Of a stretch of 64,000 bases of DNA, positions 2,843 through 57,359 are shown one piece after another. Source of the DNA: Diphasiastrum complanatum. Lineage: Eukaryota > Streptophyta > Lycopodiopsida > Lycopodiales > Lycopodiaceae. The stretch spans positions 16,253,353-16,317,352 of the forward strand of contig CM055105.1 in the NCBI GenBank assembly GCA_029204225.1, in the 5' to 3' direction. The stretch's first letter is position 1, and each line of letters opens with the position of its first letter. Position numbers and translations under genes: made by a program. The notes beneath the pieces are model-generated. The model saw nothing but the letters and a program-made list of their open reading frames with translations, searched no databases and was not told the DNA's origin.

Positions 2843-6604
<3,762 letters not shown>

Positions 6605-10172: not shown

Positions 10173-10445
10173 ACTTAGAATTTCTTTGCACAGGAAAACA
10201 GATCATGCTACACAGTAACATAGACAGAAAACACTCTCAACAGCAAGCTCACATAGCAACTGTATTTCTCAAAATGAAATTACACTGTACATATAGTTGT
10301 TCACTCAGGCAACCCATGCATGACCTAGGTTGCCGTTGGCGAGACACGTGTCCCGTTGATTTGCCTCGTGGCGAGGCCAACTGATCCTTATCAACTGATA
10401 GGACCCACAGTACAGTAGCACAATGATTCTACTTTAATTCTAACT
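10173..10445 (-). repeat. 3' LTR of the copia element
   Basis: 273 bp. On the element's strand it starts AGTTAGAATT and ends AATTCTAAGT. Those ends are nearly perfect inverted repeats, but they are not the canonical TG..CA. It contains ACACGTGT (a G-box-like core), a small GCCTCG/CGAGGC hairpin and TATATGTAC. Confidence 0.92.
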
Positions 10446-10454
10446 CTCTCCCTT
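10446..10454 (-). promoter_or_regulatory. Polypurine tract of the copia element
   Basis: AAGGGAGAG on the minus strand immediately precedes the 3' LTR, where plus-strand DNA priming occurs in Ty1/copia elements. Confidence 0.8.
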
Positions 10455-10497
10455 AAAGTAGAGTCTACTTTATACAGTCATATACATAGCTTTAATG

Positions 10498-11721
10498 TTA
10501 ACAAACTTTAAGTATAGAAAGCTTTGATCTAAACTTATCAAACTTTTCTCCAACAAGTGGCTTAGTAAAAATATCGGCTAGTTGTTCTTCTGTGTTACAA
10601 TGAACAACTTGAATTTCACGACTCAGCAGCCTCTCACGTATAAAGTGATACTGAATCTCAATGTGTTTAGTTCTCGCATGGAACACTGGATTCTTTGCTA
10701 GCTGAATACCACTCTGACTGTTGCTATGTAATGTCGTGGGATTTTTCTGCTTCATGCCAACTTCTTCCAAGATTTGTCTCAACCATATAGCTTCCTATGC
10801 TGCACTACACATTGCCTTATACTCTGCTTTTGTGGTGGAAAGAGCAATTGTACTTTGCTTCTTACTAGACCAGGAAAAGAAACTACCACAAAGCTGGAAT
10901 ACATACCCTATGTTGGATCTACGATCATCATAGTCACCTCCCCAATCCGCATCCACATAGCCACACAACTCAGGTAAACCATCATGCTTCCTATAAATCA
11001 AGCCATACTCTGAAGTGCCTTTCACATAACGCAAAATGCGTTTAGCTGCCTTCCAATGCGTTTCCGTAGGTGCTGCCATAAACTAGCTTACAATGCCAAC
11101 AACATAGCATATATCTGGTCTAGTTGTGGTAAGGTAAATCAAGCTCACTACTAATTGCCTATACAGTGTAGCATCAAATGACTGTGACTCATCAAGCCTA
11201 GAAAGCTTTTTACCTGGTTCAATAGGAGTATTCACTGGTTTGCAATCCTGCAACCTAAACCTCTGCAACAACTCTTTGACATACTTCACCTGTGTTAAAC
11301 CCACCTCGTGTCCTTTTTGCCACACCTCTACTCCAAGGCAATTATGCATCAGGCTGAGATCTGTCATCTCGAATTGTTCCATGAGGTCTTTCTTGATCAT
11401 ATCTATCATCTCTTGATTATTTCCCATAATAATCAAGTCATCAACATAAAGAGGAATCAAAGCAACCATATCGTCAAAGCATAAGGCATATAGATTTGGA
11501 TCAGAATGTGTTCTCACCATCCCCTTTGAATGAAAGTAGGCATCAATCCTGCAATACCATGCACGTGGTGCTTGTTTAAGACCATAAAGTGCTTTTTTCA
11601 AGCAACATAATTTATTTTCATGTCCCTTTGTTACAAAGCCTTCAGGTTGATCCATGAACACCTCTTCTTCTAACTCACCCCTTGCCTTGTTTTTGGCGTG
11701 TCGCAAGTGCTTGATCATCAA
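10498..11721 (-). pseudogene. Copia RT (C-terminal part) and RNase H, two nonsense codons
   Basis: Translated on the minus strand: EEEVFMDQPEGF, KKALYGLKQAPRAWY, LYVDDLI (the RT catalytic YVDD box), then the RNase H parts DADWGGD, SWSSKKQ, EYKAMCSA, NPVFHARTKHIE and DIFTKPL. One frame runs the whole length but is broken by TAG at 11083-11085 (after VVGIVS) and by TAG at 10795-10797 (before EAIW). The N-terminal half of RT is absent because of the internal deletion. Confidence 0.93.
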
Positions 11722-12319
11722 TATTTTGATGTCTAGCTTTCACCATTTCTCGCCGTTGCTCTTCCTGCATCAAGATTCCTGTGAGCTCATCAAAGGTTGG
11801 CAATCTTTCTCTTGATGCTATTCCCACAAACATCTGATAGGGTTCTGCAATGCCGCACAATGCACTGTGCACCAACTCCACGTCACGTATGCGCTCACCA
11901 ATAGAATGCAGTTCATCCCTCATTGCCTTGATTCTGGTAATGTACGCCTGAATGTGCTCTCCTTGCTCCATGCGGGCACTATTCAGCTTTGACTTCAGAA
12001 ACATGATTCTTGATGGATTTGACGTCTCGAACTGCTCCTTTAGCACATCCCATGCATGTCTAGGTGTAACAACATCACAAATGTGGGTAATGATGTGGTC
12101 CTTCACTGACAAGTTAATGAAGGTCAAAGCTTTCCTCATCTTTTTATTGAACACTTTGATATCCGCTTCATTTGGTGGCCTTCTCTCATCACCTGTGACG
12201 ACTTTCCACACATCTTTCTCCATCAGTATGTTTTTCATTTTGAATTTCGACACTGCATAGTTGGAAATCCCGTCCAATTTGCTACTTTCACGCAAAATGG
12301 ACTCTCCCATGTTTGCCAT
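11675..12319 (-). pseudogene. Copia gag (UBN2-type), truncated
   Basis: 214 codons from ATG at 12319: a MANMGES start, WKVVTGDERRPP, AWDVLKEQFETS, RIKAMRDELHSIG and LMQEEQRRE. These are the helical-core landmarks of the UBN2/DUF4219 gag family. The frame ends at ATRQKQGKG, exactly where the deletion joins it to the RT part, so the CCHC zinc knuckle is lost. The gag frame itself has no internal stop, unlike the pol part. Confidence 0.92.
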
Positions 12320-13612
12320 TGCAAAACTGCTTGAAACTTTCGCCGTAGGCTAAAAGCAGTATGCCGAGGCCAACAGTGATATCAAAAGTTGAAAATAATG
12401 ACCTGCACTTTTTCCCTTACCAGGCCACTCGCCGCTTTCCCACCAATTTGAAAGCCAAATCGGCGTCGCCTTCCGAAATGCACTCAGTCGTCAACTCCCA
12501 ACTACATGCCTAGTGGAATGGTGAAATCACTTATGGCGCACTCCGAACACTTTCTCCGCTGCAATCACTCTGTTTTGCTGTACCGTACTTGTAGGTACAG
12601 TCCGGGTGCCCTTCATTTGGAGGTTATAGCCTTTCGTTTGGGTCAAAACGGGCAAAGGACCCAAAAATAGTTACTTTTCTAGTTTTTGAACTGTTTCTTC
12701 ACCTTGAAGAAACTTCACTCTTCACTTGTGAAAGGTCCCAACTCAACTTTCCATATGAGAATTTTTAATGAAGTTGAAAGCCACAACACACTTCAAGACC
12801 CTTCAACCTTTCATGGGCTCTTTAAGCTGTCATCCAACGGTCACTTAAATCCAATGGTCCACATTGCTTCTCGGAAACACGATCTATACCATTGATTGAG
12901 CCTTAGGTAGATCCCATGGTGGCATGCAACTTTGCGCGTCAAATCAGTTTCCATGGGCCGTTGGGTCCTTCCAGACACAATAGGACTAGTCATGCTTGCT
13001 GCGTGTGACTGTCCGCGCTACCTCCTCCTCTCTTCATCCAAGGTTTTTTGGATATGGCTGCCACGTTCAGGGTTATCACATTTTCTTACCAGCTTGCAGC
13101 TGCACACGGCCACTTCAGATCCTCTAAGACTGATCAGGGCGCCCTCCTTCCAACTTTTACAGCTCCAAAAAGAATTCAGAATGGAGAAAAATCTTTGATT
13201 TTGTGCTCCCAAACCCCAGACCAGGGTTTTTCACACAAATTTGATCTTGGCTTCCTGTTCACAGTTCTTTAACATGCCAATTCTCTTCCTCTGAGGTCGC
13301 CCTACTGCTAGGAGTCTGATGCTTCAAACCGTTTGTCAAACGGTGTTCGATTGATTGCACACTGACTGCAAACACCAAATAGCTTGCTTTGAAATTTCAA
13401 AATTTCGTTTGCTGAGGTTCTGATTCAGCCGACAACCCTTGTCTCTGAATCCTCACACAGTCTCAAGCTCACCAAGCTTCTGTGGGCTAAACTCTCAGCA
13501 TCAGTGTTTCTCCTTCCGTCTTCAACCCACCGTAAACCCCGAACTCTCAGAAGACAGTTCTCCCGAAGCTCTCTTCAACGACGATGCTGTACTGTGTACG
13601 CTCCTTGTACGA
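12320..13612 (-). other. Unusually long untranslated leader of the copia element
   Basis: About 1.3 kb separates the PBS from the gag start; most copia elements have one or two hundred bases here. No convincing reading frame. Part of it aligns with the leader of a second element at 59.2-59.5 kb (see findings). Confidence 0.75.
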
Positions 13613-13623
13613 CTTTGATACCA
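13613..13623 (-). promoter_or_regulatory. Primer-binding site of the copia element
   Basis: TGGTATCAAAG on the minus strand directly adjoins the 5' LTR. It matches the initiator-tRNA-Met complementary TGGTATCAGAGC used by plant copia elements with one change. Confidence 0.88.
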
Positions 13624-13897
13624 ACTTAGAATTTGCTTTGCACAGGAACGTAGATCATGCTACTTAGTAACATAGACAGAAAACACTCTCAACAACAAGC
13701 TCACATAGCAACTGTATTTCTCAAAATGAAATTACACTGTACATATAGTTGTTCACTCAGGAAATCCATGCATGACCCAGGTTGCCGTTGGCGGGATGCG
13801 TGTCCCATCGACTTGCCTCGTGGCGAGGCCAACTGATCCTTATCAACTGATAGGACCCACAGTACAGTAGCACAGTGATTCTTCTTTAATTCTAGCT
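13624..13897 (-). repeat. 5' LTR of the copia element
   Basis: 274 bp, partner of 10173-10445. Long unbroken identity includes ACATAGACAGAAAACACTCT and the stretch from CTCACATAGCAACTG to GTTGTTCACTCAGG on the plus strand. Confidence 0.92.
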
Positions 13898-20575: not shown

Positions 20576-20710
20576 AGGGAGCAGATCGTGCGAAAAGCAG
20601 CTCTCTGCTACAACAGTCTCTCTCTGTAGCGAAGAGACAATTCTCTGCGATCAGATCAGAGCTTGCTCGCTGATCTTTGCGATCAGATCAGAGCTTGATT
20701 GCTTGCAGCA

Positions 20711-23860
<3,150 letters not shown>

Positions 23861-26557: not shown

Positions 26558-27164
26558 GGATCCTTCGTAAAACCTAACAAATACATACTTTGGGCATGAT
26601 AAAGCCTTACATAAAAATCTTGACATGTAAATTCCATTTATTTGGTAGGATGTCAAGAAAAATTAGTTGGGCACGTCTTTCTCATTTTAACAAAAGAACG
26701 GAGAAGCTTTTTGGCACACTAAACTCCTACTTACAACTATTACCCAAAATTATTTTGTGTAAACTTTTCAAAAGTTAACTCTCAGAGCCATTTTTGTAGA
26801 AATGCCAAGCAATCTGTGAAGATGAGAGTACAAGCATTTAGTACCAAGAAGAGTAATTCTCATGTAGTATAGATGAAGTTGGGGATGTTTGTACTCTCAT
26901 CTTCACAGATTGCTTGGCATTTCTACAAAATGGCTCTGTGAGTTAACTTTTGAAAAGTTTACACAAAATAATTCTGGGTTAATAGTTGTAAGTAGGAGTT
27001 TAGTGTGCCAAAAAGCTCCTCCGATCTTTTGTTAAAATGAGAAAGACGTGCCCAACTAATTTTTCTTGACATCCTACCAAATAAATGGAATTGACATGTC
27101 AAGATTTTTATGTAAGGCTTTATTATGCCCAAAGTATGTATATGTTAGGTTTTACGAAGGATCC
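26558..27164. repeat. Long near-perfect inverted repeat, 276-bp arms
   Basis: The left arm 26558-26833 (GGATCCTTCGTAAAACC to GAGAGTACAA) is the reverse complement of the right arm 26889-27164 (TTGTACTCTC to ACGAAGGATCC). The spacer is 55 bases. By eye the arms differ at roughly ten positions (about 96% identity). Pairing ends sharply on both sides: the outer flanks AACAC and ATCTA do not match. It has no reading frame of note. It could be a foldback transposon or the template of a long hairpin RNA. Confidence 0.95.
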
Positions 27165-27802
27165 ATCTAAATAAGAATAATCAGTTTTTAGCACTTACCT
27201 GATCCTTGAGTTCGGTTAGGCTATAGGTGTCTTTAACACATGAAAAGTATGTGGTTTTTGGATGTTTTAACAAATTTTGCATCATGAAAAATCGATTGGA
27301 GCTCCTCCACTCTTGTGAATTTGAGTCATATGATGTTTGATGTGAATTTGAGTCCTATGATGTGAATTTGATGACAATCTCATGCACTTAAAAACAAATC
27401 AAATGTAATTGTTCACTTTTCTACTTATTTCATAGGAAACCAATGGACATTGTGATTGATTTTGCATCTCATACTTAGGTGTCTGTCTCTCTTTCATTTC
27501 TAGATTAATTCTCATAGTTTTGCTATCATCTTCGCTTAAGACATTAAAGTTATCACATTTACTTGATTTTACTTCTTTTTCTTTTTTGTACCTTGGCCTA
27601 GTGTTTGTGAGATCTGAATCTACCTTATTGATTGAATATCCATCTTTTGTTTCATTCTTCTCATGTAAGATAAATTTTTATTTTTTATATTCTAGGTAAA
27701 CAAGGATATTCACATCTTCTACAATAAGATGAGATTTGGATCTTCTTTTGTAATTGAATGTTGGTATTGATATCTAATGTGAAAATTTGTAAAAGTTATC
27801 TA
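27165..27802. other. Spacer before LTR copy 2
   Basis: AT-rich. The last 20 bases share similarity with the sequence in front of LTR copy 1. Confidence 0.4.
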
Positions 27803-28475
27803 TGTTGAGTTAGGGGGTATGTTGACTTTTTTATGTCAATCCACATGTTAGTAGGTGATTAGGTCTATTTTGGCATTAGAGGTAACTCAAGCAAGTACAC
27901 ATGCTAGATGCTGATTAGGCCGATCCAAGAGTAAGTTAGGCACTTGACACATGGCATGATGGTAGAGGGCTAGTGACACCTTCCTATGTGTTATTGAGAT
28001 CAAGTGACCAATCACAAGTAAGATATCCATGAAATTGGTCCAATCAAGTTTGAGGGCCTATATGTCACTAAGCCAATCAAATTAGGAGGAGGAAAAGAAG
28101 GGGTCCAATCATGTTTCACTCTACCTCGAGTTGCTACTTATATGATTGATATATCAATTCTATGATTTTATGGAGATTATGAGAGTTTCTACATTTTGAG
28201 TCTTTTTTGGATTTCTCTCTCTACTCGAGGATGTGTACTTGATTTCTCTCTCTACCTGAGAGCAAGGCTTTTTTACACTTAGTTTTTTTCATTACAAATC
28301 TCCCACACGTGTGAATGTACTTTGGTGAATGATATATGCATGTTTCAGTGTGCTCTTGCCTTAGATTTGTGAGATAGATCTTGGAATTCAATCTATAGCT
28401 TGATCTTTGTGCAATCACCCACATCTTAGGAGATCAATCACACTTTTGGGGTGTCCCACATGTGTGAAATTTAAC
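27803..28475 (+). repeat. Probable copia LTR, family A copy 2
   Basis: 673 bp from TGTTGAG to TTTAACA; diverged partner of 2152-2842 in the same orientation. It lacks the 28-bp duplication of copy 1 and has private insertions (for example a second TGATTTCTCTCTCTACC near 28240). Confidence 0.65.
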
Positions 28476-51200: not shown

Positions 51201-53586
51201 TGAATTTAAACTACTATGTCACAACCTGGGACTCCAAAACTAATCAAGCTCCTGCTCCCTCTTCATTTTGCAATGCTCATAAAGCGACTGGCAGTCCTCG
51301 CCATTCAATGATTTTATGGAGGTGATCGCAATGAGAAGCACACCTTCCACCCTCCCTCCCCAACATGGAAGCATAATAGCTTAGTCAAAGAAGATCGAAT
51401 CCAACAAAAGAGATACTAGAAATCAGTAATAACCATTCTCCCTTCCTCGCAAGCCTAGAAAAGGATCTTAGCCAAAGATCCAAGGAGAAGTGACCCGTGC
51501 CTCTTTTCCATGCCACTCACAAGAGAACACACCAAGGACCACCCTTGGACTAGTGTCTCCCTCCTCCATGCCCTTTTATATGTTTAGGGGAGTGAGATAA
51601 GCATGTTTGGGAGTCATTAAGTGTAACAAAAGGACCTCAGGAGCTTAGTGCATGCTTGATAATAATCAAAAGGAAATTCCCAAAATCAAAATTATTCCCA
51701 TACATGTAATCATAGGCTCATATCGATGTTGGTCAGAAACTAGTTATATTGTAAGAAATCTCTCAACAAGGAAGGTTTCCAGAAGGCTAATCCTTCATTG
51801 TCTCAAGTCTATACCATTGTTGATATATAAATCGGTTGTTCTCTTCTGTTAGAGTATTGACCTTCAAATTAGTTCTTTTGATGAAAACATTAAAATCTTC
51901 AACCATCATCGCTAGTGATCTTGGCCGTTAAACTCTCCACAACTCCTTGCATCTTAACAAGGGATGCTATAAATTTCTCTTCCACAAATGGAAGATCAAA
52001 TTTAGGAACATATATTGATGTTTTGTTTCCCCATTTCTGGTGTAAAAACATACATAAATGTAACAACAAACAAGCACAGTACATGCACACACCAAGCCTC
52101 ATCAGTTTCATTTATTATCGGGGACGGTCTCTTATTTCAAGTGTGGCCTGCATCAGTGTTTCCACAAAATCGAGCAGTTCTGAGTTGTATGAATCGGCAT
52201 GAATCAAGGCTCAGCGCTGATCGTAAAAGAATCGGGCAGGAAAAAAATTTGCAGATTCTTTCAGATATAGTGCTAAAATTATCTGATTCTATAATGTTTT
52301 TTATAGGTATGATATTGCTAATGGATACATACAATTCACTGTTCCTTTTAGAAAGTTAAACCTTAATTAGCGTTGACAGAGTCACACTGCAAATGACAAT
52401 GGACGCAATCACACTTCACAAACTGCAATAATCAACTTTATTGTCTAGACTCTACAATGTTCCATCATCTACATTCCATGTTCCAACTTCCACTTAACAA
52501 TATAATTTATAATTTATCTATGATCCATCATCAAACATCATCACACAGTACCCTGGGTAAACATTTGAATACAAATTAAACCACTGAAAGGCAAAATCAA
52601 AGAACCGTTCATGATTAGCAATATCAAAGAACTCCTCCTTGAATGGGTTTATGTTGGAAGGCTTAACAATGCAGGGAAAGGAAACGGCAATAACTGGCGC
52701 TTACTTGCCCATGGAACTATAGACAATCAGTTAGGTTCTACATGAAACTAAGAAGTTCCTGCAGTTCGAAAAGCAGTAATTGTTCGCTATACAGAAAAAA
52801 TCATCAAGAATGCGCGCCATCACGCAGCACTTTTCCTTTAAGCCAACAACTTGGGCGCACCTATGTGTAGAAATAACTAATACATGAAGGTTTGAAATAA
52901 AGAATCTCACTAACTCTTGAGATCACAGTTGCAGCTCCCAATTGAGCTGATAATCTAAACCGCAAGTATTTGTGAGATCGCAATATATCCAGATTCACAG
53001 CTATGGTTAGCACATGACATCGTTTAACTGATTTGCATTAGAATTGGTGGCTTGACCATTTGCTAAATTGTGGAGTCAGCGATGTCAATTAGAAGAAACT
53101 TTGAAAATCGTGCATGCGACTAAAAAACTATAGATCGGCATACAATGGCTAAAAGGTACCACTTTAGCTCTGCTCTAGATCAGAATAATTCAGGCATCAA
53201 ATAAGACGGATCAAGAAAATCGAATCAAAGAGGAATATGTTGCTTTCAAGCTCATGCAACCAGTTAAACCAACAGCTCCTTGTTGTAGAGCATACATGAT
53301 GCAATTCTTACCAGGGACCGCTCTCGTCTGCATCCTGGGCTCTCTGCTTGATAACTAATTCCCAGCTGCGCAAATTATCGGCCTTCAGAGAAAGCCCTTG
53401 CCGATCCAACAACATTGCCAGGTCATGCAGAGCGGGTGCAAGGGAAAGGTCGGTGGCAGCACTACCACTCTTCTCAAGGCTCGCTATCACTTCCTCCAAA
53501 AGCTGAATAGCGCCTTCCTGGTCGCCATCATCTAACAAATCCTCTACTCTGGACGACCAATTCTTCAGAACCTTGCTTTCTGCCAT
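36265..53586 (-). CDS. Plant TPR-like / R3HCC1L-like protein (six exons, 17.3 kb)
   Basis: Exons in transcript order are 53586-53312, 49810-49743, 45573-45343, 44886-44731, 36773-36681 and 36473-36265. Splice phases agree at every junction and sum to 1032 nt (343 aa). Residues 1-85 form a TPR-like helical pair (NWSSRVEDLLDDGDQEGAI, LAPALHDLAMLLDRQGLSLK, RSWELVIKQRA). Next come a linker and DWEAVLHNLPS, KRGRGAFTF and LYSDRISD. An RRM-like domain spans about 192-262 (SHVLLVDGFPS, ELEDLFKPF, FAIRWLNDTSALAVF). The C-terminus is basic (DLEPHVRRPATS, AQRMIAGAL, RQKLREEAWGLD). This order matches the plant proteins annotated as TPR-like or R3HCC1L-like as I remember them. The biochemical role is not established; RNA-associated function is inference from the RRM-like fold. 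Introns of 3.5, 4.2 and 8.0 kb hold transposon relics. Confidence 0.88.
36681..36773 (-). CDS. R3HCC1L-like gene exon 5
   Basis: 93 bp finishing the RRM-like domain (ACQALAAAHSSQFKVQNFDD). Acceptor GTTTGCAG, donor GTACTACT. It lies 8 kb from exon 4. Confidence 0.85.
37784..37797. repeat. AGGAACCGTTCCT palindrome in intron 4
   Basis: An odd-length palindrome, one of several GGAACG/CGTTCC hairpins scattered in this intron. Confidence 0.6.
37940..38300 (+). repeat. AAGAAC/GGAACA hexanucleotide-like repeat
   Basis: Runs of AACAAG, AGGAAC and related hexamers, densest at 37955-38170, with interspersed longer words such as GAAACTTAGGAACAGG. Lies inside intron 4 of the minus-strand gene. Confidence 0.8.
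38587..38672. repeat. Two perfect hairpins in intron 4
   Basis: AACCATTCCT (38587-38596) pairs with AGGAATGGTT (38601-38610) across a 4-base loop. AGGAACGGCCGTTCCT (38657-38672) is a perfect 16-bp palindrome. Confidence 0.85.
38770..39205 (-). pseudogene. Ty3/gypsy integrase core fragment, nested in intron 4
   Basis: On the minus strand: FHKWGIDFVGP (first catalytic Asp), RKADAKSVACFLYENIITRF, GCPIELVSDPGSHFLNE (second Asp), STPYYPRCNGLTESTNKM (Glu) and SDWETKLFSAIWAYHTT. The DDE triad is intact, but a short segment after SRYI is missing and the frame degrades at the 38.77-kb end (KTPFELI in another frame). It shares the transcription direction of the host gene. Confidence 0.92.
39930..39955. 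repeat. Perfect 11-bp-stem hairpin
   Basis: CGTTCCGACCC, AAAA loop, GGGTCGGAACG: a GC-rich hairpin in an AT-rich intron. Confidence 0.9.
41267..41370 (+). repeat. Telomere-like degenerate TTTAGGG/GTTTAGTG stretch
   Basis: Contains TTTAGGGTTCAGTGTTTAAT, then GTTTGGTGTTTAGTGTTTGA and AGGGTTTATGG. It may be an interstitial telomere-like remnant or merely GT-rich sequence. Confidence 0.35.
41700..42165 (-). pseudogene. LINE ORF1-like fragment, nested in intron 4
   Basis: The minus strand reads a coiled-coil part (NKINELERHLSELKEATKSW), then a frame change, then 122 codons with NVRIQGV, SFLDATLSF, STLIIRFISKGERTKILRLK and LKGKQIFLDEDLT. The last block is the C-terminal landmark of L1-type ORF1 proteins (KxxLKGxxIFxxEDLT). 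No ORF2 is present nearby. Confidence 0.7.
42206..42253 (+). repeat. (AG)24 microsatellite in intron 4
   Basis: 48 uninterrupted bases immediately beyond the LINE ORF1 relic. Confidence 0.97.
43655..43673. repeat. CATTCCGTTCCGGAATG hairpin
   Basis: 7-bp stem (CATTCCG/CGGAATG) with a TTC loop; another member of the CGTTCC palindrome group in intron 4. TAGAATAGAGCGCTTCTA lies just before it. Confidence 0.6.
44731..44886 (-). CDS. R3HCC1L-like gene exon 4
   Basis: 156 bp encoding nearly all of the RRM-like domain. Acceptor ATACGGCAG, donor GTAATTAT. Confidence 0.88.
45343..45573 (-). CDS. R3HCC1L-like gene exon 3
   Basis: 231 bp with the DWEAV, RGRGAFTF and LYSD conserved blocks. Acceptor TTCTAACAG, donor GTACGTCC. 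Confidence 0.85.
48017..48375 (-). pseudogene. hAT-family transposase fragment, nested in intron 2
   Basis: On the minus strand: VVSFIARQKCVLALF, LKKPAPTRFAYYFVVLERM (the TRFASxFxxLxRx block of hAT transposases), then after a frameshift near 48240 DPLQRMTANDGFQDFMGR, FGEDFWTRAMELVDILQP and LCLVDRVLPPVSGTVY. The order matches the middle of plant hAT transposases (DUF659-type neighbours). No terminal repeats found. A GC-rich strip at 47160-47720 next to it may be more of the same element. Confidence 0.72.
49743..49810 (-). CDS. R3HCC1L-like gene exon 2
   Basis: 68-bp linker exon (CKLGSCENKRDGQHVEIPAA). It completes Trp92 and leaves the G of Asp115. Acceptor TTTCAAG, donor GTTGAT. It was found only by demanding phase agreement between exons 1 and 3, so it is less certain than the others. 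Confidence 0.7.
53312..53586 (-). CDS. R3HCC1L-like gene exon 1
   Basis: ATG at 53586, codons 1-91 plus two bases of Trp92; donor GTAAGAAT. Encodes the TPR-like N-terminus. Confidence 0.88.
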
Positions 53587-53676
53587 CGCCAGCCAGGCGC
53601 GCTGCTCCTCCTCCTCCTAATCCTGTATTTCTCCCCTCTTCTTATTTGTTGATGGATATTCGACAAAGCGAGTAGC

Positions 53677-53682
53677 TTTATA
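53677..53682 (-). promoter_or_regulatory. TATA box of the R3HCC1L-like gene
   Basis: TATAAA on the minus strand (context AATATAAAGC) stands about 90 bases before the start codon. Confidence 0.45.
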
Positions 53683-53722
53683 TTTTGAGGACCACTTATC
53701 CAGGCCCGCCGCCCTACGGAAT

Positions 53723-53808
53723 TTGGAGTGTGTTCACACACGCAGCTCTCAACTAGTAGTAAGTGGCTTAGCCCATTTCAGTTATGGACTTGTGTAGCTA
53801 GAGAGTCC
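53723..53808. repeat. Direct repeat A bracketing the reverse-transcriptase relic
   Basis: Shares GTGTTCACA, AGCTCTCAACTAGT(A/T)GTAAGTGG, TAGCCCATTTCA(G/C)TTAT and AGAGAGTCC with 57060-57138, same orientation, about 80% identity by eye. Confidence 0.85.
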
Positions 53809-53950
53809 ATGTTGGAGTACTCACCAACTTATAAGGACTAGGTAGCGGCGTGAGCAGGCCCGCTTCCGTGTGTAGCAGGTGGCCTTCACGCACCGAGCCG
53901 CCCTGCGGCGAGGTGCGTTGAAGGCTGGCATAATTTGTCATTTGGGCCCT

Positions 53951-54006
53951 TCAACTGCCTTTCAGTTGACAACTTGTTGGCTCTGAACGTCTGTGTTCAG
54001 AGCCAA
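53951..54006. repeat. Two adjacent perfect hairpins
   Basis: TCAACTG/CAGTTGA (53951-53969, 5-base loop), then TTGGCTCTGAAC/GTTCAGAGCCAA (53977-54006, 6-base loop). They lie downstream of the reverse-transcriptase frame on its strand. Confidence 0.9.
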
Positions 54007-54097
54007 TGAAAATGTGCTAGCTGTCCACTATCAACCCAAATGCAAATTATGTTTATATAACTAGCATTCTAGATATATAAATAAATCCTCTCGTGCA

Positions 54098-54103
54098 TTT
54101 ATT
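54098..54103 (-). terminator. AATAAA downstream of the RT frame
   Basis: A poly(A)-type hexamer about 150 bases past the stop codon on the minus strand. Between them CCCCTTCGGGG (about 54150) can form a C(UUCG)G tetraloop. Confidence 0.35.
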
Positions 54104-54251
54104 CATAAGAAAAAGTAGAAGGTACATTGATGAAAAAGATATATACACCCCGAAGGGGAAGTTTAAACAAAAGTAGGTTCAAACAAGAGCGAAGCTTGCA
54201 GTAAAGCTAAGATTAATTTCAATTCTGGCATTAAAAATAAAAGTGCATAAA

Positions 54252-57013
54252 CTATGATGATGTTCGTGGGAGTTTGCCAACTGACTGCAGCAGATCAGAA
54301 AAGTGAAGAGGTGGTGAGTCGGCTAATGAAGGGAGATGAGATGTAGCAGACCCAGACATCGTTGCCCGTTGCAGAATAGATAGGGCCTGAGCACGTTGCA
54401 GGGCAATGGAAACACGTCGTTTGAAAGAAGCCACGAGAATAGAACCAGGAATACCTTGACGCTCTGCCGCCTGATGAGAACACATGCGAAGAAAATCCTC
54501 AAAGCGTCGATGCAAGGTGCCATAAGTCTCAATTGCCAAGGGAAGGAAAGCATCAGTGGGGTGTCTGTCGGAGTAGTTTTTTTCCTTCTCTTGTGCTGCC
54601 ACGCCTGCCGCTTCTCCTGGTGTGAAGGCAGAGCGAGGCAATAGGTCACCACGCATGGGATCAACAGCAACAACATCTGCCAAAGTACGAAGCCCATCCC
54701 AAGAGAGGACAATGTCAACACGCTTGCGGGAAGAGTGGGACGTGGAAGAAGGAAGGACATGAGACTGTTCTTTGAGGACATGGAATCCTCCATCTCTGGC
54801 TATAGCGGCCGCTGCATCTCTGACAGCATCATGTGTAGCTGTGCGCTTACTCCCAAAAGGACAGCGAAGGAGGTGGATGGATAGCAAGAGCATCAATAAG
54901 GTGACCACAAACACACCTGGAGAGATCCAAGACCGAAGGATGAGGAAGCCCCAAGCGAAGACGAAGAGCAGTGGTGAAGATGGCCGAAGACAACCAAAAG
55001 GAAGGAATAACAGGCCGAGCTGACAGCCAAACCCCCACACCAGGACCCGCACAAAAAAGAAGCCGAGCTCGATGCAACACCGAAGGAGCCTCGGAGAGCG
55101 TGCTGGAAAGGATATGCTTGTGCACGCGCTCCAAGAGGGTCTCTTGCAGGTGATCTAAGCTAAAAGTGTTGAGTTGCTCAAAAGGAGGAAGACAAGTTTG
55201 GGCAGAGAGGGGGAGGAGCTCTCGCACAGCGATGAGGAGGTGCTGAAAAGACAGAGAACCGCTATCCACATGAGCAATGCAATCCACCAAGAGAGAGCGG
55301 AAGCCAGAAAGGAACCAAGCAGACAAAGCAGGGGCAACAAGAGCCCAGCTCCCAAGAAAAGCTGCAGTTGGAGAAGAAACCATAGAGAGAAGACCCACAC
55401 CTCCACAAGAAATGGGTAACCGAGTCTGGTTCTGAGCTGAAAGGGTCTCCACACCATCCAAAGAACCTGGTCCCAAAAGGCGGACAAAAACATTCATAAG
55501 AGAGTTGTCAAAGGAAGAGAGGAGATGCAAAAAAAGTCCGGAGGGGGAAAAGTCCGCAGCAAATAAGAAGGACGCTGGATTAAGCAAGACGTCAAGATGC
55601 CAAACGCGACCTGAGTGTCGCCCAACCGGGGAAGCAGATCCGAATGAGCAACATCCTCTTGGAGAGCCTCACCAAGAAAAGCAGAGCTGAAGGAAGCAGG
55701 CCCAAAAGAAACACCCATAATGCGAATGTCATCCAAAGGAGTAAGGTAACCTTGAGGAGGAACAAAGTTCGGGGAAAGACCTGCTGGAGACCACACTGAA
55801 TACTTGCGAGGTTGAATAGACAAACCAAGAGAAGCCAGCTGCTCAGAGAAATGATGAAATGCGTGGAGCACCATAGGAACGTGATCAACAATATGAGTGT
55901 CATCAGCAATCGAAGGACATAAGCAGGAGGGAACTACAGAAGCTCGAAGTGCACAGAAATGAGCTAGAGAGAAAAGAGGACCAGCCAAAGGATCACCTTG
56001 ACGAGTACCTGCTACAAACTGGATAGTAGAAAGATCCCCAGAGCGCACATGGTAACTGTAAAAGAGAGGAGTCTCAGTAGCATAGAACAACCGCACAAAT
56101 GGGATAAGCTGAGCCAACTCACCACCAGCCGCGCGAGCTCCTGAAAGATCGCAGCTGTAGAAATAGAGTTAAAAGCATTGGAAACATCCACTTGGAGAAC
56201 AACCAAGTCTGGATGGAGATCAAGGGTGGCACGCAAACCATGAATAACAACTTCACAGTCGCCAAGAGTAGAGATGCCAAACTGATGAGGGGAGAGAAGA
56301 GAGGCGAAAATTTGTCGAAACTAAAAACAAATAGAGTGACTAACAAGACGAAGGTGGACTTCGCCAATAGCGATGGGATAGACGCCATCCGAGGCTTTAG
56401 ACATGGCGATCAAATGAGACGCGGACAAAAGACATGCGACAGAAGAAGGAATGTGACCAGAGGCGATAAAAGAGCAGACCTGAAAAGCAATCATGAAGGT
56501 GTTCATAGACCAAACCGGAGGGACCACCAACAGCAAGACGAGGACTACGATGGAAGGCACGAGGGAAAGAATCACGATCAAGCACCAAGTCAACATCAGA
56601 CACAAAGTCCTCCACAAACAAGGGAAAAATGCCTTCAGAAGCAGGATGTAAAGCTTCGAGAGCAGCAACAATATCAGTAGAAGAAGGAGCATGTGTGAGA
56701 GGAGCTAAAGCTCGAGCTGCACGAGAATACTCACCAACTTGCCCAAGATGTAGGGTGCGACGAAGGCGATGGTGGAGAGGTGAGGTGCCTTGAGGTTGAG
56801 AGTCTTGTGAGTTGCAAGCAGCAAGTGCCTGACAACGTGCAAAGTGTTCATCATGAAGCATTTCTTAGTCTCCCAATAGAAAGCGACGAAGGCGAGCACG
56901 GGGGATAGGACTAGACACCAAAGAGGAAAAAGAAGAAACATATTCCAAGCCGCAATGTCAAAGGGGTCAATAGCCAAGCGATCAAGAAGCTTGGCTATTG
57001 ACCGCTTTGACAT
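54252..57013 (-). pseudogene. Non-LTR reverse transcriptase with CCHC and restriction-like-endonuclease-type C-terminus
   Basis: One decayed frame of roughly 900 codons. In order on the minus strand: AAWNMFLLFPLWCL; ARALAPLTHAPSS and AALEALHPASEG; GGPSGLVYEHLHDC; motif A VVLQVDVSNAFNSI (Asp at 56186-56188); motif B GTRQGDPLAGPLF (from 56009); motif C SIADDTHIV (DD at 55899-55904); GLSIQPRKYSVWSP; RLPISCGGVGLLS; CVCG...AIHLLRC (C-x-C-x9-H-x3-C, near 54863-54910); THDAVRDAAAAIA; and RVDIVLSWDGLRTLADVV, where D at 54714 and D at 54675 are 12 residues apart. CCHC followed by D-x12-D at the C-terminus is the layout of R2-clade LINEs with a restriction-like endonuclease. At least five frameshifts (about 56.87, 56.46, 56.12, 55.59 and 54.88 kb) and a TAG at 56321-56323 inactivate it. 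The N-terminus is missing. Confidence 0.8.
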
Positions 57014-57052
57014 TGGATTGTGTTCACAAGGAGCTCCTTGTGTTCACAATCC
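56953..57052. repeat. Consecutive long hairpins at the upstream edge of the RT relic
   Basis: CAATGTCAAAGGGGTCAATA...CCAAGC (56953-56979) pairs over 27 bases with 56989-57015, one mismatch, 9-base loop. Directly after, 57015-57052 is a 38-bp palindrome (GGATTGTGTTCACAAGGAG and its complement, two mismatched pairs). Confidence 0.9.
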
Positions 57053-57059
57053 AAGAGGC

Positions 57060-57138
57060 TTGGATTGTGTTCACAAAGAGCTCTCAACTAGTTGTAAGTG
57101 GTAGCCCATTTCACTTATCGACTTTGGCCAGAGAGTCC
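57060..57138. repeat. Direct repeat B bracketing the reverse-transcriptase relic
   Basis: Partner of 53723-53808. It starts TTGGATTGTGTTCACAAAG and ends CCAGAGAGTCC. Confidence 0.85.
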
Positions 57139-57236
57139 TTCACTTTAGTCAAGGTAGTTTCAGTTTACCCCTTTCACACGTTAATCAACCACTATGCCCA
57201 ATCGTAAGCCCCCTTTCACCCAATAACCTTTCCAGT

Positions 57237-57359
<123 letters not shown>

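Follow-up and report, generated by a model that had tools for sequence, protein, structure and literature searches.

The segment at positions 53723-57138 of the window, by which we mean the whole 64,000-nucleotide stretch of Diphasiastrum complanatum DNA analysed here, carries a reverse transcriptase (RT) reading between direct repeats and long hairpins, which raises the question of which of these parts belong to a mobile element and what kind of element it is. We read the RT-bearing part, at a probability of about 0.82, as an inactive copy, truncated at its 5' end, of a dispersed non-LTR retrotransposon (LINE) of the restriction-like endonuclease (RLE) type.

A decayed LINE copy in the window

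The window corresponds to C14:16253353-16317352 of its own genome (G000, 1.74 Gb, 5,176 contigs). Matches in that genome and comparison with 14 other insertions set the boundaries of the LINE copy, which is 5'-truncated and frameshifted and occupies 54086-56987 on the minus strand, with its 3' end at about 54086 and its 5' end at 56987. Six-frame reading of this interval gave an RT split over several frames and carrying in-frame stops. The N-terminal RT region, with the stretch GPSGLVYEHL, lies at 56397-56864 (frame 2) and is followed at 56012-56320 (frame 0) by a piece containing motif A, LQVDVSNAFNS, near 56188. This piece is the only one of six from the window to match Pfam RVT_1 (E = 0.0019, below Pfam's cut-off), and the window pieces alone score weakly. 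The B region TRQGDPLAG and the ADD of motif C (SIADD, 55904-55899) are found in a frame 2 piece at 55494-56168 that was aligned to a longer reading from another copy, P0001.

Downstream, a frame 1 piece at 54847-55668 contains the thumb or linker and the first part of a zinc knuckle (C-x-C..H, 54915-54877), and the piece at 54255-54878 contains the end of the knuckle and the probable RLE domain. The complete knuckle, C-x-C-x9-H-x3-C, reads RCVCGHLIDALAIH plus LLRC (54915-54861), with a frameshift between H and C, and is followed by RVD-x12-D, with Asp at 54716 and 54677 and candidate Lys at 54587 and 54581. The six-frame reading thus confirms the succession of RT motifs A, B and C, knuckle and D-x12-D that an earlier note had described on the minus strand.

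Genomic copies and insertion ends

We found at least 52 matches to the window element in its own genome among the 40 scored of 2,822 candidates, some of these places being near-duplicates. Eighteen of the 52 span query positions of about 372-400 to 3260-3288, equivalent to about 54071-56987 in the window, and the others are shorter or in pieces. Leaving aside the window and its duplicate contig, the longer copies are 87-93% identical. Twenty copy regions were compared, and merging of near-duplicates (L014/L015, L016/L021, L020/L023, L022/L025 and L024/L026, with L009 a near-duplicate of the window locus) left 15 insertions including that of the window.

These insertions share a 3' end and differ beyond it. 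The sequence GAATAAATGC is present near the 3' end in 14 of the 15, and in 12 the terminal bases are ..GGTG, with unrelated sequence immediately beyond and no poly(A) between; the last bases deviate in the window (GAGAGGA) and in L014. Poly(A) is absent from 14 of the 15. The 3' flanks differ among all 15 insertions and the 5' ends vary, and one further copy has an inverted 5' part and lacks its middle (C2:49857913-49859656 plus 49857221-49857701, within C2:49857221-49859656). A common 3' end, variable 5' truncation and 5' inversion are marks of target-primed reverse transcription, and the family shows what is expected of a non-LTR retrotransposon: dispersed copies, a common 3' end, variable 5' truncation or inversion, and no LTRs. 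No short target-site duplication was recognised in 14 of the 15 insertions, shared words reaching at most 9 nt versus at most 10 nt in mismatched controls, in a test that used approximate 5' ends and left out L012, whose 3' end is off pattern. Values of dN/dS between copy pieces ranged from 0.38 to 1.60. Of the 34 pairs printed (of 36), 28 gave values under 1, though often near it, which points at most to past constraint diluted by decay. No relatives of the LINE were found among viral contigs.

Two features of individual copies may be added. In L012, near 5937, an A/T-rich (A-rich) end, AATAAATAAATA.., replaces the common 3' terminus. A Ty3/gypsy element (97.8% identical; L010:1-2891 and L011:68-2958) adjoins two LINE copies at different LINE positions.

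Alignments with the other copies end at about 54086 and 56987 and do not reach the direct repeats. This comes close to what the earlier note had named as a sign of coincidental bracketing, namely copies that end inside the direct repeats. A genome-wide look at the copies therefore bears out the dispersal of the family, whereas the hairpins and direct repeats are not common to its members.

Hairpins and direct repeats at the window locus

The long hairpins that had been described inside each direct repeat are real and far stronger than chance. Both the left block (53820-54090; fold z = -9.4) and the right block (56945-57090; fold z = -12.3) were more stable than every one of 200 shuffles. The left block contains a dispersed hairpin-forming repeat, GGACTAGG...AAATTATG, at 53834-54051, which the genome search identifies as separate from the LINE: with 40 of 604 candidates scored, it occurs in at least 38 places beyond the window and its duplicate contig. 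Six of the seven copies compared (L033-L039) span approximately GGACTAGG to AAATTATG, and L039 has the right half alone. The repeat is 218 bp long in the window and up to about 265-280 bp elsewhere, and copy L033 has a probable 8-9 bp target duplication, seen by eye.

The right block has a different make-up. At 56953-57015, the first bases of the truncated LINE are joined to an inverted copy of themselves (27-nt arms, 96%), and at 57013-57083 folding and self-comparison reveal a second fold-back, in which the start of the right direct repeat recurs in alternating orientation. No fold-back was found within 400 bp upstream of the LINE in the 14 other insertions; the window alone has one. We read the right hairpins as the scar of a fold-back where the LINE was cut short at its 5' end.

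Self-comparison of the window likewise upholds the direct repeats at both edges. The left (53723-53808, 86 bp) and right (57060-57138, 79 bp) repeats, both on the plus strand, show 82.6% identity in a gapped alignment of 86 columns (E = 4e-18 to 7e-18 within the window). When the right repeat and its surroundings were searched against the genome, with very common words skipped, matches came just from the window locus and its duplicate contig; the uniqueness of the left repeat rests on this same search. Repeats from flank to flank, sought within 1.5 kb of the ends, were found in none of the 14 other insertions, L024 having an unrelated flank repeat 0.75-1 kb away. With LINE matches ending at about 54086 and 56987, no other insertion bracketed in this way and the left hairpins forming an independent repeat, we do not retain the claim that the direct repeats and hairpins are part of the element's structure.

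How the direct repeats arose is less easily decided. They might already have been present as a local duplication when the LINE and the hairpin repeat landed in it by chance, a reading to which we give even odds. In its favour, the repeats do not abut the ends of the LINE, and other insertions have no long duplications near their ends. Against it, the repeats are found at the window locus alone, and they have diverged as far as would be expected since the insertion. The pair distance is 0.109 ± 0.039 (79 sites, 8 mismatches), or 0.054 per copy, and the divergence of the window copy in a tree of 16 sequences is 0.055 (stem 0.047 plus tip 0.008). With its wide error, this agreement between repeat divergence and insertion age would fit repeats formed when the LINE inserted. 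In a plain target-site duplication the left repeat would have to abut the LINE end, and the roughly 59 bp and the hairpin repeat that lie between the two count against so simple an origin. We regard the direct repeats as a duplication peculiar to this locus, which nicks set far apart may have produced as a long target-site duplication. A long stagger is on record for an RLE LINE, R9 of rotifers, for which 126 bp between nicks is cited (PMC6895275).

Other repeats are present elsewhere in the window. A pair of 265-nt direct repeats with 93% identity, separated by 3.45 kb (10181-13897), encloses Copia-type coding pieces read by eye on the minus strand (11083-12349) and probably represents the LTRs of a Copia element. 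A long fold-back of about 600 bp in all (26558-27164) has 199-nt arms that are 94% complementary, with further nested arms, and 2127-2737 and 27778-28365 are two diverged copies of one repeat, about 25.6 kb apart. At 20699-23465, reading by eye picked out pieces of a cysteine protease of the papain type that ends in a granulin-like tail. This gene and the Copia and Gypsy pieces, likewise judged by eye, would be in keeping with a plant genome. Rfam gave one sub-threshold snoRNA match in the window (E = 0.25), which we take as chance.

Protein architecture and RT kinship

In longer copies a frame runs from MASDIS.. to ..TSS, about 1,100 codons apart (L019: 2507-5809). It is open throughout in none of the 20 compared copies, the longest open part being the 839 aa of P0001, from L013. 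Upstream of about 2300, at least three different 5' leaders precede the common frame start (L013/L022, L014/L018 and L016/L017/L019). L013 and L022 have no stop-to-stop frame of at least 200 aa ahead of the RT frame, and the true 5' end may lie beyond the copies compared. By eye, L017 and L019 have an N-terminal C2HC finger, C-x2-C-x12-H-x3-C (CHACGRFFSPRGGLARHQHSC), ahead of the RT; Pfam gave no zinc finger or Myb match in the N-terminal piece of L017. Together, the other copies indicate a predicted single protein of about 1,100 aa with the order zinc finger, RT, CCHC knuckle and probable RLE.

P0001 matches Pfam RVT_1 at 1.9e-17 and otherwise just RdRP_1 below threshold (E = 0.049). An RVT_1 match by itself does not separate LINE clades. 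The best relatives of P0001 in the PDB are R2 proteins (1.7e-6, 2.1e-6 and 2.8e-5). Group II intron RTs come next, at 0.016 or weaker, and the PDB matches listed include no L1 chain. NCBIfam gave sub-threshold matches alone, to a group II intron RT for P0001 and to an unrelated model for the C-terminal piece of the window.

The aligned C-terminal pieces share CVCGHPIDALAIHLLRC, a TH position, an E, RVD-x12-D and, 30-32 residues after the second Asp, K.K; one Cys of CVCGHPIDALAIHLLRC is lost in L010 and part of it is missing in the window piece. The catalytic residues of R2Bm are Asp996, Asp1009 and Lys1026 (PMC10499050), so that the D-x12-D spacing is equal, whereas the Lys follows the second Asp by 17 residues in R2Bm. 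Local hhalign comparison with three R2 nuclease stretches placed the residues collinearly (E = 0.017 for one comparison, probability 2.7%), and global alignment was weaker (E = 0.11, probability 0.3%). An R2 nuclease HMM scored two of the seven pieces at 10.0 and 6.7 bits, versus 6.2 for the best of 5,000 shuffles of the L013 piece (2,394 reported with a score); the other five, including that of the window (0.6 bits), stay at or below that shuffle. A motif pattern drawn up once the sequence was known fits five of the seven pieces and none of 20,000 shuffles. A C-terminal profile matched nothing in the PDB at E ≤ 10, and single-sequence folding of the window RLE piece was poor, with a pLDDT of 45. 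Weak statistics such as these, taken with the domain order and the RT kinship, make it likely that the C-terminal domain is an RLE.

L1 and RTE elements are recognised by an apurinic endonuclease, a C-terminal RNase H or zf-RVT in plant L1, and a poly(A) or short tandem tail; none of these hallmarks was found in the LINE copies. Pfam showed no apurinic endonuclease family in pieces of L013, L028, L017, L032 and L011, and no RNase H, zf-RVT or endo/exonuclease family in P0001 at E ≤ 10, where HMMER filters drop most weak matches. A 2013 table gives L1 (233) and RTE (7) as the LINE families of flowering plants (PMC3747384). This, with the inability of RVT_1 to tell clades apart, would favour a plant L1 or RTE LINE whose C-terminus has been misread. 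We consider that reading very improbable, given the Pfam results for the C-terminus, R2 as the best solved relative, the terminal knuckle and D-x12-D, and 14 of 15 insertions without poly(A), L012 alone having an A-rich end. The earlier note's assignment to an RLE-type LINE rather than to L1 or RTE is supported by the RT kinship, the knuckle and D-x12-D, with the nuclease itself on weak statistics, and the L1-type RNase H or zinc C-terminus that the note had named as refuting it was not found in the L013 copy.

Proposed mechanism

The copies, their ends, the motif order and the RT kinship are described above as observed; for the RLE activity, the target-primed mechanism and the origin of the direct repeats, we infer the following course. 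The LINE RNA, mostly integrated without poly(A), would be translated into one protein of about 1,100 aa, whose RLE would nick one target strand. The RT would then copy the RNA from its 3' end, frequently stopping early and leaving 5'-truncated or 5'-inverted copies. At the window locus, strand-switching may have closed the 5' junction, producing the fold-back of LINE end and adjacent target DNA, and the hairpin repeat adjoining the LINE 3' end would be unrelated. The direct repeats would have arisen as a duplication specific to this locus, perhaps when nicks far apart gave a long target-site duplication.

Unclassified RT proteins that resemble this one are known in non-seed plants. We found no description of such a plant RLE family in open PMC papers. 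On RT trees, RLE LINEs form the more ancient type of LINE (PMC4640811), and the 2013 table lists L1, RandI and RTEX for green algae beside L1 and RTE for flowering plants (PMC3747384). If our reading is true, RLE elements dispersed through a plant genome would widen the known range of RLE LINEs. They would also provide a relative of R2 that is seemingly not tied to one site, R2 being an enzyme that now attracts interest for inserting genes. The locus also teaches that repeats bracketing a single copy should be compared with copies from the whole genome before they are taken as part of an element.

Comparison with known systems

Penelope-like elements combine a GIY-YIG nuclease with LTR-like terminal repeats; no GIY-YIG family was found in P0001 by Pfam and no terminal repeats surround the 14 other insertions, and we reject this assignment. 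That 53723-57138 is one mobile unit of LTR-like or Penelope-like kind, with terminal direct repeats and subterminal hairpins, is scarcely credible: the repeats and hairpins are real and contig C1830 has the same arrangement at 97%, but C1830 also matches the outer flanks (a 3,968-column alignment, window 53400-57289) and is a duplicate of the locus, the right direct repeat is found nowhere beyond these two places, none of the 14 other insertions has comparable brackets (the L024 flank repeat being different), and genomic copies end inside the unit.

A close likeness is to R2 of animals (R2Bm, R2Tg; PDB 8gh6, 9nl3, 9dou, 9nl2), which is also a single protein of about 1,100 aa (1,114 aa in the 8gh6 chain) with the order zinc finger, RT, CCHC and nuclease, has D-x12-D and gives the best RT match. 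The LINE differs in having RVD where R2 has KPD, in its knuckle spacing (C-x-C-x9-H-x3-C), in a Lys further from the second Asp, in the absence of a Pfam zinc finger or Myb from the N-terminal piece, and in flanks that are not shared rDNA. Rfam found no rRNA match at E ≤ 0.5 and no ribozyme match in four LINE loci. The C-terminal domain order is thus R2-like, as the earlier note had it, whereas membership of the R2 clade in the strict sense is not upheld, the 15 insertions sharing no 28S rDNA target.

Dualen/RandI of green algae has a PD-(D/E)XK-like nuclease (PMC3636483), and Dualen differs in also having an apurinic endonuclease, not found in the LINE copies, whose 5' ends may be incomplete. 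RandI has 3' repeats in all eight green-algal families tabled (PMC3747384), which are absent from the LINE here. R9 of rotifers, which is rDNA-specific (cited in PMC3636483), offers a precedent for a long target duplication through its 126-bp stagger (PMC6895275), whereas here one locus alone has the repeat, at some distance from the LINE ends. It is a speculative and rather doubtful proposal that these RLE LINEs form an abundant plant lineage of their own, which has lost site specificity, inserts without poly(A) and sometimes leaves target duplications of at least 80 bp with strand-switch scars at the 5' junction. HERO and NeSL/Utopia are likewise of the RLE type, and precise 3' ends with varied 5' ends are known in Utopia, target duplications are rarely recognisable in crocodilian Utopia, and HERO includes non-specific families (PMC4640811). 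Oomycete Utopia has an RNase H, unlike the LINE here. The LINE here may belong to HERO, to NeSL or to a separate plant branch.
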